From Ferruginibacter sp. (GTDB taxonomy: Bacteria; Bacteroidota; Bacteroidia; Chitinophagales; Chitinophagaceae), in contig JANXTG010000216.1 of NCBI GenBank assembly GCA_025352525.1, forward strand, positions 1 through 58,738: a stretch of 58,738 nucleotides of DNA. Reading direction: 5' to 3'. Below the pieces are notes generated by a model. The model made no database searches. It had not been told where the DNA came from and saw nothing but the letters and a program-made list of their open reading frames with translations. Position numbers and translations under genes: made by a program. How positions within the stretch are numbered: position 1 is the stretch's first letter; each line of letters starts with the position of its first letter. Positions 20,971 through 43,408 of the stretch are shown in pieces.

Positions 20971-20999
20971 AAAAAGAAGCCCCCGTAGAAACGGGAGCT
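20971..20999 (-). terminator. Intrinsic terminator downstream of prfA
   Basis: On the minus strand AGCTCCCGT, loop TTCT and ACGGGGGCT form a 9-bp stem with one wobble pair, followed by TCTTTTTG. It lies about 180 bases beyond the prfA stop codon. Confidence 0.7.
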
Positions 21000-38853: not shown

Positions 38854-41349
38854 TTATACCCTTCCATCTCTTATCTCATTTACCACATCAGGGTCTAACA
38901 ATGTTGTAGTGTCTCCCAAATTTTCTGTTTGCCCTTCAGCAATTTTTCTTAAAATACGGCGCATTATTTTTCCGCTGCGTGTTTTTGGAAGTCCGCTGAC
39001 AAACTGTATTTTATCTGGCTTTGCAATGGCACCAATTATTTTTGAAACTGTCAGGCTTATATCCTGTCTTCTTGAATTTTCATCGCCATGATGTCCGTTG
39101 TAAATTACAAATGCATAAATGCCCTGGCCTTTAATTTCGTGCGGATAACCAACTACTGCGCTTTCTATTACACCGGAGTGCATGTTAATTGCATTTTCCA
39201 CTTCTGCTGTTCCAATTCTATGCCCACTAATATTTAATACATCATCAACCCTTCCTGTGATTTTATAATTTCCATTTTCATCTTTTATTGCACCATCACC
39301 GGTAAAATATAAATTCGGATATGCAGCAAAATAATTCAGTCTGCATCTTTCATGATCACCATAAGTAGTTTTTAAAATTCCTGGCCATGGAGCTTTAATA
39401 CATAAGTTTCCAGCCCCCTCCAAACCTCCCCCAAGAGGGGAGGCTTTTAAGCACTCTGCTGCATAATCACTTCCTTCAACAATATTGCCTTTTTCATCTA
39501 CTAAAACAGGCTGCACACCTGGCATTGGCAAAGTTGCCCATCCAGGCTTTACGGGGGTAATGCCTGCAAGGTTTGATATTAATGTTCCTGCAGTTTCTGT
39601 TTGCCACCAGGTATCTACAATTGGGCAATTCTTATTACCGATATTTTCATTATACCAGTGCCATGCTTCTTCATTTATGGGTTCGCCTACAGTAGCCAAA
39701 ACTTTTAAAGATGAAAAATCTTTGCCTAATAAAGGGGCATTTCCAAAGCTCATTAAACTTCTAATTGCTGTAGGCGCAGTGTATAAAATATTCACTCTAT
39801 GTTTACCGATAATATCCCAAAATCTGCCTGCATCCGGCCAGGTAGGGGTTCCTTCAAACATAAGACTGGTACCGCCTGCAGCCAAAGGACCATATACAAT
39901 GTAACTGTGGCCGGTTATCCAGCCTATATCTGCAGTACAAAAATTCACATCGCCTTTGTTGTATTGAAACATATTTACGAATGTATAGGCTGTCCAAATC
40001 ATATAACCGGCAACACTGTGTACAACACCTTTTGGTTTTCCTGTACTTCCAGATGTATAAAGAATAAACAGTGGATCTAACGCATCCATTTCTGTGGCAG
40101 CCCAAGATACATCTGCCCCTCCTAAATCCTCCCCCGAAGGGAGGACTTCTGAACTATCAGATATTTTTGCCTCGTTCTTTACATCAGGCATACTATCCAA
40201 TTTTTCTTTTATTTTTTTTATTACTTCATCGATATTATTTATTACATCATCATTACTAAATCTTATTTCAGTATACCCTAACTCTGCTAAAAATTTAGTT
40301 CTTGCTACATCGTAATCTTGCTGTTCAGTTGTGTTATGGTACCCTCCATCTACCTCTATGGTTAGTTTCTTTTTTAGGCAAACTAAATCAACAATAAATT
40401 CATCAATGATATGCTGCCGCCGAATGTGGTAGCCTGTTTTATTTGCTCTTAAACTTTGCCACAATATATCTTCCTCTTTTGTTGCATTGTCTTTTAATTG
40501 CTGACTAAATTCCTTAAAGAGCCGATATGTCGAGTTTCTTGCAGTCTCTCGATAATGGGGACGCTGCTCCTTCCCCTCTGGGGAAGGTTGGGAAGGGGCT
40601 GTCTTTTGCTCCCCTCCTCGGGAGGGGTCGGGGGAGGCTATCTTTTCCAGTTGTGATTCTGCAAATTCCATCTCATCTTCCCACCAAACATCTCTGCCTT
40701 TTATCATACTTACCGGTGTTCTTGTTCTTGTATAAACAATAACTTTTTTTACGGTTTTATTTCCTACCAATGCATCATCAATTACCGCTTTTAAAGGAAT
40801 TATTTTATCACCTCGGTAAGATCCATCGCAGGTAATAATAAATTCTGCCTGCGCATCTTCTAATCTGTCTGCAATACTTTGCGCACTAAAGCCCCCAAAT
40901 ATTACGGAGTGTATAGCACCAATTCTTGCACAGCCAAGTACCGCATAAGCAAGCTCAGGCACCATACCCATGTATATACAAACGCGGTCACCTTTTTTTA
41001 CGCCATTGTTTTTTAATACCTGTGCAAACTGGCAAACTCTTTTGTGCAGGCGTGCGTAAGTAACCGTCCTTACCCGTTCTTCGGGGTTATTTGGTTCCCA
41101 AATAATTGCAGGTTTATCTGCCATGAGCGGCAAATGCCTATCAATACAATTTTCAGTAATATTTAATTTACCTCCTTTAAACCATTCAATTTTTGGCTCA
41201 GTAAAATTCCATTCCAATACCTTATCCCACTTTTTTCTCCAGTAAAAACTTTCAGCAACTGCTCCCCAGAATGATTCGGGATCTTCAACAGATTTTTTAT
41301 AATCTGCGTGGTATTGTTCTAATGATTTTATTTGATAAGCGTACGACAT
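38854..41349 (-). CDS. acs: Acetyl-CoA synthetase with an in-frame DUF559 nuclease-domain insertion
   Basis: Acs makes acetyl-CoA from acetate, ATP and CoA. The 831 residues exceed the usual 640-650. ACS blocks flank an insert: residues 1-236 end 'VWWEDEMEFAESQLEKI', and ACS sequence resumes with 'EMDALDPLFILYTSGSTGKPKG' (P-loop motif). Later come 'DIGWITGHSYI', 'DTWWQTETAG', 'YFTGDGA', 'GRVDDVLNISGHR' and the acetylatable lysine K794 in 'RSGKIMRR'. Residues about 237-412 are foreign: two repeat-derived Pro/Gly-rich segments, a DUF559-like domain (about 268-385) and a third repeat segment. A fourth repeat lies at 636-646 ('ASPLGGGLEGA'). All inserts keep the frame and ACS motifs are intact, so the enzyme may be functional as a large fusion. 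The MHS transporter gene is divergent. Confidence 0.95.
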   Translation of the reverse strand: MSYAYQIKSLEQYHADYKKSVEDPESFWGAVAESFYWRKKWDKVLEWNFTEPKIEWFKGGKLNITENCIDRHLPLMADKPAIIWEPNNPEERVRTVTYARLHKRVCQFAQVLKNNGVKKGDRVCIYMGMVPELAYAVLGCARIGAIHSVIFGGFSAQSIADRLEDAQAEFIITCDGSYRGDKIIPLKAVIDDALVGNKTVKKVIVYTRTRTPVSMIKGRDVWWEDEMEFAESQLEKIASPDPSRGGEQKTAPSQPSPEGKEQRPHYRETARNSTYRLFKEFSQQLKDNATKEEDILWQSLRANKTGYHIRRQHIIDEFIVDLVCLKKKLTIEVDGGYHNTTEQQDYDVARTKFLAELGYTEIRFSNDDVINNIDEVIKKIKEKLDSMPDVKNEAKISDSSEVLPSGEDLGGADVSWAATEMDALDPLFILYTSGSTGKPKGVVHSVAGYMIWTAYTFVNMFQYNKGDVNFCTADIGWITGHSYIVYGPLAAGGTSLMFEGTPTWPDAGRFWDIIGKHRVNILYTAPTAIRSLMSFGNAPLLGKDFSSLKVLATVGEPINEEAWHWYNENIGNKNCPIVDTWWQTETAGTLISNLAGITPVKPGWATLPMPGVQPVLVDEKGNIVEGSDYAAECLKASPLGGGLEGAGNLCIKAPWPGILKTTYGDHERCRLNYFAAYPNLYFTGDGAIKDENGNYKITGRVDDVLNISGHRIGTAEVENAINMHSGVIESAVVGYPHEIKGQGIYAFVIYNGHHGDENSRRQDISLTVSKIIGAIAKPDKIQFVSGLPKTRSGKIMRRILRKIAEGQTENLGDTTTLLDPDVVNEIRDGRV
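39411..39446 (-). repeat. GC-rich palindromic element a, in frame inside acs
   Basis: On the minus strand the element reads GCCTCCCCTCTT followed by GGGGGAGGTTTGGAGGGGGC and encodes 'ASPLGGGLEGA' (acs residues 636-646). It lies directly before the conserved 'GNLCIKAPWPG' block, where ACS proteins normally have a short linker. Confidence 0.8.
40113..40146 (-). repeat. GC-rich palindromic element b, right edge of the DUF559 insert
   Basis: On the minus strand it reads TCCTCCCTTCGGGGGAGG followed by ATTTAGGAGGGGC, encoding 'EVLPSGEDLGGA' (acs residues 401-412). It aligns with element a in the same orientation and is inverted relative to elements c1 and c2 on the other side of the nuclease domain. 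Confidence 0.8.
40567..40642 (+). repeat. GC-rich palindromic elements c1 and c2, left edge of the DUF559 insert
   Basis: Two adjacent units, 40567-40601 (TCCTTCCCCTCTGGGGAAGG then TTGGGAAGGGGC) and 40608-40640 (TCCCCTCCTCGGGAGGGG then TCGGGGGAGGC), read in the consensus sense on the plus strand. On the acs strand they encode 'ASPDPSRGGEQ' and 'APSQPSPEGKEQ' (residues 238-262). Confidence 0.8.
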
Positions 41350-43126: not shown

Positions 43127-43408
43127 ATGAAAAAGGAAAATAGCAGTTCAGTACCAGATTCTGAGGCCTCTCCTTCAAGGAGGTTTGGAGGGGCTGTTAA
43201 AAGAACAATGGGCTTTGTCTGGATAATTATTGCACCGGTAATAATTTTCTTTTTGATCTCCGGAGCCATAAATAATATTGGCAATGGCAGCAAGGATATT
43301 AATAAACCTATTCCATGGATTATTATCATAACTATTTTTACACCAATTGCAGCAGGGCTAATGGTCTTTGGATATTATGCAATAAAAGGTGAATACGATA
43401 AGAACTAG
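43127..43408 (+). CDS. Small two-helix membrane protein with a palindromic element in its N-terminus
   Basis: This 93-residue protein has two membrane helices (about 28-47 'MGFVWIIIAPVIIFFLISGA' and 63-82 'IPWIIIITIFTPIAAGLMVF') and ends 'GYYAIKGEYDKN'. Small proteins of this design are often found beside MHS/MFS transporter genes in Bacteroidota and may assist the transporter. Residues 14-23 (ASPSRRFGGA) are encoded by the GC-rich palindromic element found in acs. The native protein may begin near 'VKRTMGFVWII', with the first 25 residues an element-derived extension, or an alternative start at M28 (43208) may be used. Confidence 0.75.
   Translation: MKKENSSSVPDSEASPSRRFGGAVKRTMGFVWIIIAPVIIFFLISGAINNIGNGSKDINKPIPWIIIITIFTPIAAGLMVFGYYAIKGEYDKN
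43165..43196 (+). repeat. GC-rich palindromic element e, in frame in the small membrane protein
   Basis: The plus strand reads GGCCTCTCCTTCAAGGAGG then TTTGGAGGGGCTG and encodes ASPSRRFGGA. It aligns closely with element a of acs and starts in the same codon phase (GCC TCY CCT). Confidence 0.8.

Follow-up and report, generated by a model that had tools for sequence, protein, structure and literature searches.

A DUF559 nuclease domain with inverted palindromic ends inside an acetyl-CoA synthetase gene: a probable non-splicing, homing-type cassette

How does a nuclease domain come to lie inside the chain of a conserved enzyme? The question is raised by acs, the gene for acetate--CoA ligase (acetyl-CoA synthetase, ACS), on contig JANXTG010000216.1 of Ferruginibacter sp. 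(assembly GCA_025352525.1; Bacteroidota, Chitinophagaceae), of which positions 1 to 58,738 were analysed (hereafter the window). Its reading frame contains a DUF559 nuclease domain bracketed by short GC-rich palindromes. We conclude that the insert is probably a non-splicing, in-frame, homing-type mobile nuclease cassette whose inverted ends resemble repetitive extragenic palindromic (REP) sequences.

The acs frame is open over its 831 codons. The Pfam search divided it into ACAS_N, an AMP-binding domain split in two stretches, AMP-binding_C and DUF559 (PF04480), the last at aa 279-384 (E 8e-30). The earlier note on this DNA, made from its letters alone, had called the DUF559 domain complete and the ACS interrupted in frame between residues of about 236 and 413, and both descriptions held. 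The DUF559 match covers profile positions 4-108 of 109 and scores 103.4 bits against a curated cut-off of 20.6, and a second profile search also returned a full-domain match (E 4.6e-31). ACS matches to the window protein were found in 135 of 144 genomes of the family. The first matching part of the relatives ends at window aa 236/237 and, in the rows listed for 133 other genomes, the second begins at aa 408-420, which places the insert at about aa 237-413 (window 40111-40641). The frames in these rows are only 557-715 aa long, some of the short ones possibly clipped by contig ends, and therefore cannot hold both ACS and the insert. The window genome itself has a single ACS match in this search.

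An empty site in relatives, which the earlier note had proposed to look for, was seen in 28 of 29 loci, with same-genus relatives among those lacking the insert. The earlier note had put the normal ACS length at about 645 residues; 27 of the 29 related open reading frames (ORFs) span 640-711 aa, and the remaining two are shorter. The protein at the empty site reads like AE.QVEKDGVVSFPAEEMDAEDP, and in the window about 177 residues replace the part after LEK. The corresponding DNA in seven relatives is GAA AAR GAN GGN-like, without an insert. The parts of the gene are given below, where R1 denotes a model of one subfamily of the palindromic element.

38854-41349, minus strand: acs, acetate--CoA ligase ORF with in-frame cassette, 831 aa (open frame, Pfam, family lengths)
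40642-41349, minus strand: ACS N-terminal part, aa 1-236 (match span of relatives)
40608-40639, minus strand: upstream palindromic element, outer copy, tag and hairpin (R1, E 0.003)
40567-40600, minus strand: upstream palindromic element, inner copy (R1, E 3.5e-6)
40198-40515, minus strand: DUF559 nuclease domain (E 8e-30 and 4.6e-31; AlphaFold model, fold search)
40114-40147, plus strand: downstream palindromic element, inverted relative to the upstream copies (R1, E 1.5e-4)
40111-40641, minus strand: inserted cassette as a whole, about aa 237-413, 531 nt (empty sites of relatives)
39412-39445, plus strand: solo palindromic element in frame in acs (R1; full cassette at the same site in a relative, L249)
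38854-40110, minus strand: ACS C-terminal part, aa 414-831 (match of relatives)

The R1 matches at the borders thus recover, in opposite orientations, the GC-rich elements that the earlier note had placed at 40113-40146 and 40567-40642. Across 134 in-frame loci, a hairpin search, in which pairing is perfect by construction, returned 257 hairpins in the flanks and none in 11 flanks. The best 95 hairpins mostly share a common form: a tag of (A)GCC plus pyrimidines, a few bases, and a GC-rich hairpin of about 5-9 pairs. By pattern, tag and hairpin occur on both sides with the tags outward in 74 of the 134 loci, and an A stands directly before the tag in 47 and 50 of these 74 on the two sides. Read in their stop-free frames, the elements give short linker peptides (SPxGGxxxGA and LTPNPSPKERG, for example).

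The element is also dispersed outside cassettes. Ten R1 matches at E < 0.01 were found in the window's own genome, four of them within acs; of the six outside it, those on contigs C171 and C83 read as element peptides inside frames. An exact pattern search of this genome returned one site only, the pattern being too strict. Among the listed R1 matches, neighbours within 200 nt were tag-outward in 15 cases, tandem in three and of the opposite arrangement in none, a pattern like that of REPINs (paired REP hairpins). One tag-outward pair lies inside a 795-aa frame, which from its motifs we take to be UvrA.

If palindromes and nuclease belong together, inverted copies should flank DUF559 genes above chance, as the earlier note had proposed. 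The window's genome has one full DUF559 domain and one weak match, and the association was therefore tested on family and further loci. The weak match, the genome's only other (G000:C43:6168-6449; loci L002 and L153), scores 24 bits, just above the cut-off, and lies in a 1461-aa frame. DUF559 is present in 76 of 147 family genomes. In all, 119 regions were fetched around matches of at least about 86 bits, weaker and mostly partial matches being left out, and gave 124 records including the window; 123 entered the flank test (one flank was short), and 62 of these lie in stop-to-stop frames of at least 205 aa. The upstream 250 bases were compared with the reverse complement of the downstream 250 at a threshold score of 32. 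Inverted flanks reached it in 61 of 123 loci (28/62 in-frame, 33/61 standalone), compared with 1/123 same-locus controls, 1/123 cross-genome pairs and 0/123 shuffles, and further loci from a second scan (described below) gave 45/69 versus 0/69 controls, with 18/69 across loci. The proposed association is thus well above chance in both sets. That cross-genome pairs scored so low suggests element sequences particular to each DUF559 lineage. Beyond the phylum, 12 plasmid-borne DUF559 loci from Cyanobacteriota, Pseudomonadota and Deinococcota included seven with inverted flanks beyond all 200 shuffles; one of the others was reached by 1/200 shuffles, and four were without inverted flanks.

We further asked in which genes such cassettes reside. 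Representatives of the host clusters were named by NCBIfam as LeuRS, MetRS, MetH, IcmF, chorismate synthase, CinA, adenine deaminase, DEXH helicase, HsdR, IspG and others. A maximum-likelihood tree of 120 DUF559 domains (four records were left out for stops, N or short length) contained one clade (support 99/87) of 51 rows, all 51 in frame inside hosts and none solo; the tree was built on few columns, and its deep forks are uncertain. The hosts of this clade are LeuRS (23, at two sites assigned by motif), MetH (8), IcmF (5), AroC (4), CinA (4), MetRS (2), adenine deaminase (2), and ACS, DEXH helicase and an M23-peptidase-like frame (1 each). The window DUF559 groups with LeuRS inserts (100/96), and the cassettes at LeuRS site 1 are spread over several DUF559 lineages.

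The second scan, of named genomes, used the clade alignment A2, which biases both it and the phylum sample below towards the intragenic clade. It found 497 relatives, and the best 80 were kept; all 80 are in frame, and their frames span 282 aa or more (9 loci had already been collected and 2 others lacked enough flank, which leaves the 69 usable loci above). NCBIfam names for ten scan loci extended the host list to urocanate hydratase, MiaB, 3-oxoacid CoA-transferase and, by a weak match, a SiaA-like phosphatase, so that one DUF559 group occurs in frame in 14 host families (10 by the tree and four more by the scan). In a sample of 395 genomes of the phylum, 98 had a match with an E value no higher than 1e-25. 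The 21 top-scoring matches were without exception in frames of at least 425 aa, and solo genes occurred at lower scores. An assembly or binning artefact might be suspected, since many sources are metagenome bins. However, the same pattern occurs in two single-contig genomes (G004 and G141) and in named isolates of the scan (Flavobacterium, Aequorivita, Marivirga, Nubsella, Formosa), and we give this explanation almost no weight.

Some loci in these sets are unusual in other ways. In a separate DUF559 group, the domain precedes ArgB (4), MurU, ThrB and HisA as an N-terminal fusion (L069, L076, L090, L109, L101, L104, L132), and most of these fusions begin MKENMFYGA-like; in L334, a solo element stands ahead of an apparent ArgB. 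In an Emticicia metagenome-assembled genome (MAG; L291), a cassette lies between the A and B subunits of 3-oxoacid CoA-transferase, all in one frame, as if the insertion had joined two genes. Bacteroidota-type cassette genes also occur in bins titled Streptomyces griseus, Saccharibacteria and Bifidobacterium breve (L237, L248, L250), which are probably mislabelled or contaminated.

Sites are reused, by solo elements as well as by full cassettes. The solo element at 39412-39445, which the earlier note had overlooked, is the best R1 match of its genome and adds 12 residues relative to aligned relatives. In the Chitinophagales MAG WC_3 (L249), ACS has two cassettes: one at the central insertion site of the window ACS, resembling the window's own cassette in sequence, and a different one where the window has the solo element. 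LeuRS site 2 holds an element-like peptide, judged by eye, in five loci (L072, L079, L087, L093, L143) and a full cassette in other genomes. Two weak R1 matches (E ~0.2) were found on contig C191 of the window's genome; the one in a MetRS-like frame is at the site that holds a cassette in L252, L255 and L276. Two LeuRS genes (L041, L038) carry two cassettes of different subclades at two sites of one protein. In two genomes whose LeuRS has two cassettes (G123, G013), no second LeuRS above the cut-off was among the matches listed, and G012 has two incomplete LeuRS loci with a cassette in each. The cassette in a CinA gene (L148) is decayed but in frame, with its IE.DG motif reading IKIDE and a long branch; cassettes thus seem able to degenerate in place.

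Which enzyme moves the elements? Another enzyme, for example a Y1 transposase of the REP-associated (RAYT) type, could do so, with DUF559 genes as passengers between two elements. The REP-like form of the element agrees with this, as do the ties between REP families and RAYTs described in the accessible part of PMC3733652, and 11 of the 15 genomes searched have Y1 matches. However, element counts do not follow Y1 in this search, which was limited to Y1 transposases. No Y1 match was found in G141 (one contig; 11 R1 matches) or G012 (72% complete; 31 R1 matches), whereas five genomes (G034, G055, G085, G116, G119) have Y1 matches and zero R1 matches. RAYT is thus not supported as the driver, Y1 presence failing to track elements in the 15 genomes. 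In addition, it would be surprising for passengers to fall into a single clade whose 51 members are all in frame, and we regard movement by another enzyme as unlikely.

The elements do follow the cassette. In the same 15 genomes, all eight carriers have 1-50 R1 matches and none of the seven non-carriers has any. Among 144 genomes, R1 matches occur in 27 of 36 carriers, the cassettes' own elements being counted, versus 16 of 108 others (Fisher 5e-11); the 16 comprise 9 of the 25 genomes that have some other full-length DUF559 and 7 of the 83 that have none. In one carrier (G126), none of the 11 listed R1 matches is on the cassette contig.

The predicted structure points to the kind of enzyme involved. 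The AlphaFold model of the DUF559 domain is good (mean pLDDT 88.7). The best solved structures found by Foldseek were 3hrl and I-Bth0305I (3r3p; E 7e-5 and 2.3e-4, TM 0.70-0.76), and a profile search agreed on both (E 1e-5 for I-Bth0305I). The earlier note had called DUF559 Vsr-like; the fold is indeed related, but Vsr is more distant (TM by query length 0.55 for 1vsr and 0.61 for 1cw0), and by its model DUF559 is closer in fold to the EDxHD homing endonuclease I-Bth0305I. The candidate catalytic residues D43, E54, D56, H60 and D69 are invariant in an alignment of 38 DUF559 rows. A defence-system library gave weak matches for the window domain, the best being a homing endonuclease model (E 3.4e-5).

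Judging from substitution ratios, the inserted nuclease is under purifying selection. Among 60 overlapping same-host pairs listed, 45 were computable; nuclease dN/dS ranged from 0.013 to 0.385 and was 0.2 or less in 40, and host dN/dS ranged from 0.018 to 0.170. Twelve close pairs, hand-picked from the 60 and two of them sharing a row, gave by approximate counts five cassettes younger than the host split, two older or different, and five of the same age. Such selection would also be expected if the nuclease had been domesticated and added a function to each host, such as DNA binding or a damage response, with the repeats as leftovers; a DUF559 protein has been proposed to act in DNA repair in the available text of PMC12907096. 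However, the host enzymes are unrelated, LeuRS site 1 holds cassettes of several DUF559 lineages, some cassettes differ in age, in either direction, from the host split, and same-genus relatives do without the insert. Domestication is therefore very improbable.

The insert might instead be removed or skipped during expression, as a cryptic intein, an RNA intron or by ribosome bypass across paired inverted elements; inverted copies could pair in the mRNA, looping out the cassette. The Pfam scan of the acs ORF returned ACS domains and DUF559/MTES_1575 alone, without a Hint or other splicing domain, and Rfam gave nothing credible, its two matches being far under the gathering scores. Moreover, the frame is kept in all 80 scan loci, which an intron or bypass would not need, and removal is scarcely credible to us. 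A Met is present in the 30 residues before the domain or its first five in 46 of 122 intragenic domains, versus 54 of 61 solo ones, and many cassette nucleases can thus hardly be made outside the host chain.

Several observations weigh against a mobile, homing-type cassette. Its anatomy was observed directly; movement, cutting and the fusion protein are deductions from it, none of the three having been observed. No target-site duplication was found (mean match 0.61 versus 0.72 when reshuffled; 74/134 loci usable). In the flank test, 62 of 123 family loci fall under the inverted-repeat threshold, and the direct orientation also reaches it in 28 of 123, as expected from palindromes and tandem copies. 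Some R1 matches look like chance, including one in the window's genome (contig C98) on a conserved radical-SAM motif. Nine of the 36 carriers have no R1 match, and the elements of the cassettes themselves enter the carriers' counts. For 5 of the 12 pairs, the divergence of the cassette matches that of its host. The predicted model of whole ACS is poor (27 sequences; mean pLDDT 60.2), and the insert cannot be placed in it. Finally, Caulobacter VsrA, which has DUF559, is proposed to be a mismatch-repair enzyme in the accessible part of PMC12907096.

On balance, the earlier suggestion of a nuclease unit that would move with its repeats gains from the empty sites, inverted flanks and elements in carriers, and neither outcome that the earlier note had named as speaking against it was seen. 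A homing-type cassette could work as follows. The host mRNA would be read straight through into one fusion protein, whose nuclease may nick or cut element copies or empty alleles, or DNA close by, and repair from the filled copy would spread the cassette in the manner of homing endonucleases. Solo elements and short pairs may be non-autonomous relatives or remnants. Conserved essential genes would be retained as homes because only precise, frame-keeping changes survive there. More broadly, we lean somewhat towards the view that DUF559 proteins are mobilising enzymes of a REP-like repeat class across phyla, and that a single clade, in Bacteroidota, has turned into an obligate gene-in-gene, non-splicing homing element of housekeeping genes, conserved enzymes thus carrying an active nuclease in their own chain.

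Two further sites in the window were noted. Besides the four elements in acs, the hairpin pattern scan of the window (35.6% GC) returned a single unrelated site at 20980-20997, where an isolated GC-rich inverted repeat differs in sequence and does not match the element. A weak match lies just past the transporter adjoining acs, where the peptide SEASPSRRFGGAV occurs in a small ORF:

43165-43195, minus strand: weak, degenerate element in frame in ORF 43127-43408 (R1, E 0.19)

If correct, this reading describes a mobile element that survives in conserved genes in a new way, keeping the frame, bringing its own linkers and staying in the protein. A palindromic repeat class would gain a nuclease partner; the CGTC superfamily of REPs is apparently without a dedicated transposase, according to the accessible part of PMC3733652. 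Odd peptides such as SPxGGxxxGA within bacterial enzymes would be accounted for, annotation and structure pipelines would need caution over nuclease domains in synthetases, and natural insertion sites would be indicated in LeuRS, MetRS, MetH and ACS. The in-frame cassette pattern was not found in the open-access literature searched, mostly at abstract level.

Among known systems, Vsr shares a related fold with the cassette and Caulobacter VsrA shares DUF559 (PMC12907096, in part); these are presented there as repair enzymes, the accessible text making no link to repeats or in-frame insertion. I-Bth0305I has the same nuclease fold as the cassette (TM 0.70-0.76). Homing endonucleases also inhabit conserved genes, and their link to self-splicing sequences frees them to invade such genes, as the available part of a review states (PMC3943268); it is surprising, then, that the cassette sits in conserved genes without any splicing element found. 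In the same part of that review, I-Bth0305I is grouped with the homing endonucleases of spliced group I introns and has a long extra DNA-binding region, for which the 107-residue DUF559 would leave no room; the cassette has inverted palindromic ends. EDxHD enzymes are encoded in introns, inteins or free-standing ORFs, whereas the cassette lies in frame inside its host ORF. Inteins with a nested homing endonuclease are similar in lying in frame in conserved enzymes, in having occupied and empty alleles, and in the reuse of sites. Unlike inteins, the cassette has no Pfam protein-splicing domain, and its insert appears to stay in the mature enzyme.

The likeness to REP/REPIN sequences with RAYT, drawn in the earlier note, holds for the short tag plus hairpin, the dispersed and solo copies, the inverted pairs and the flanking of an own gene. 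It fails in that the gene is a DUF559 nuclease and not a Y1 transposase, that Y1 does not track the elements, that many copies are intragenic and in frame, and that the tag is (A)GCC-pyrimidine rather than GTAG or CGTC. The cassette also differs from DDE-type insertion sequences in showing no target-site duplication at the usable loci. In the palindromic elements of Rickettsia, palindromes lie in frame inside protein-coding genes, as they do in the cassette hosts; to our knowledge these elements carry no nuclease gene, whereas the cassette has a nuclease between its inverted copies.

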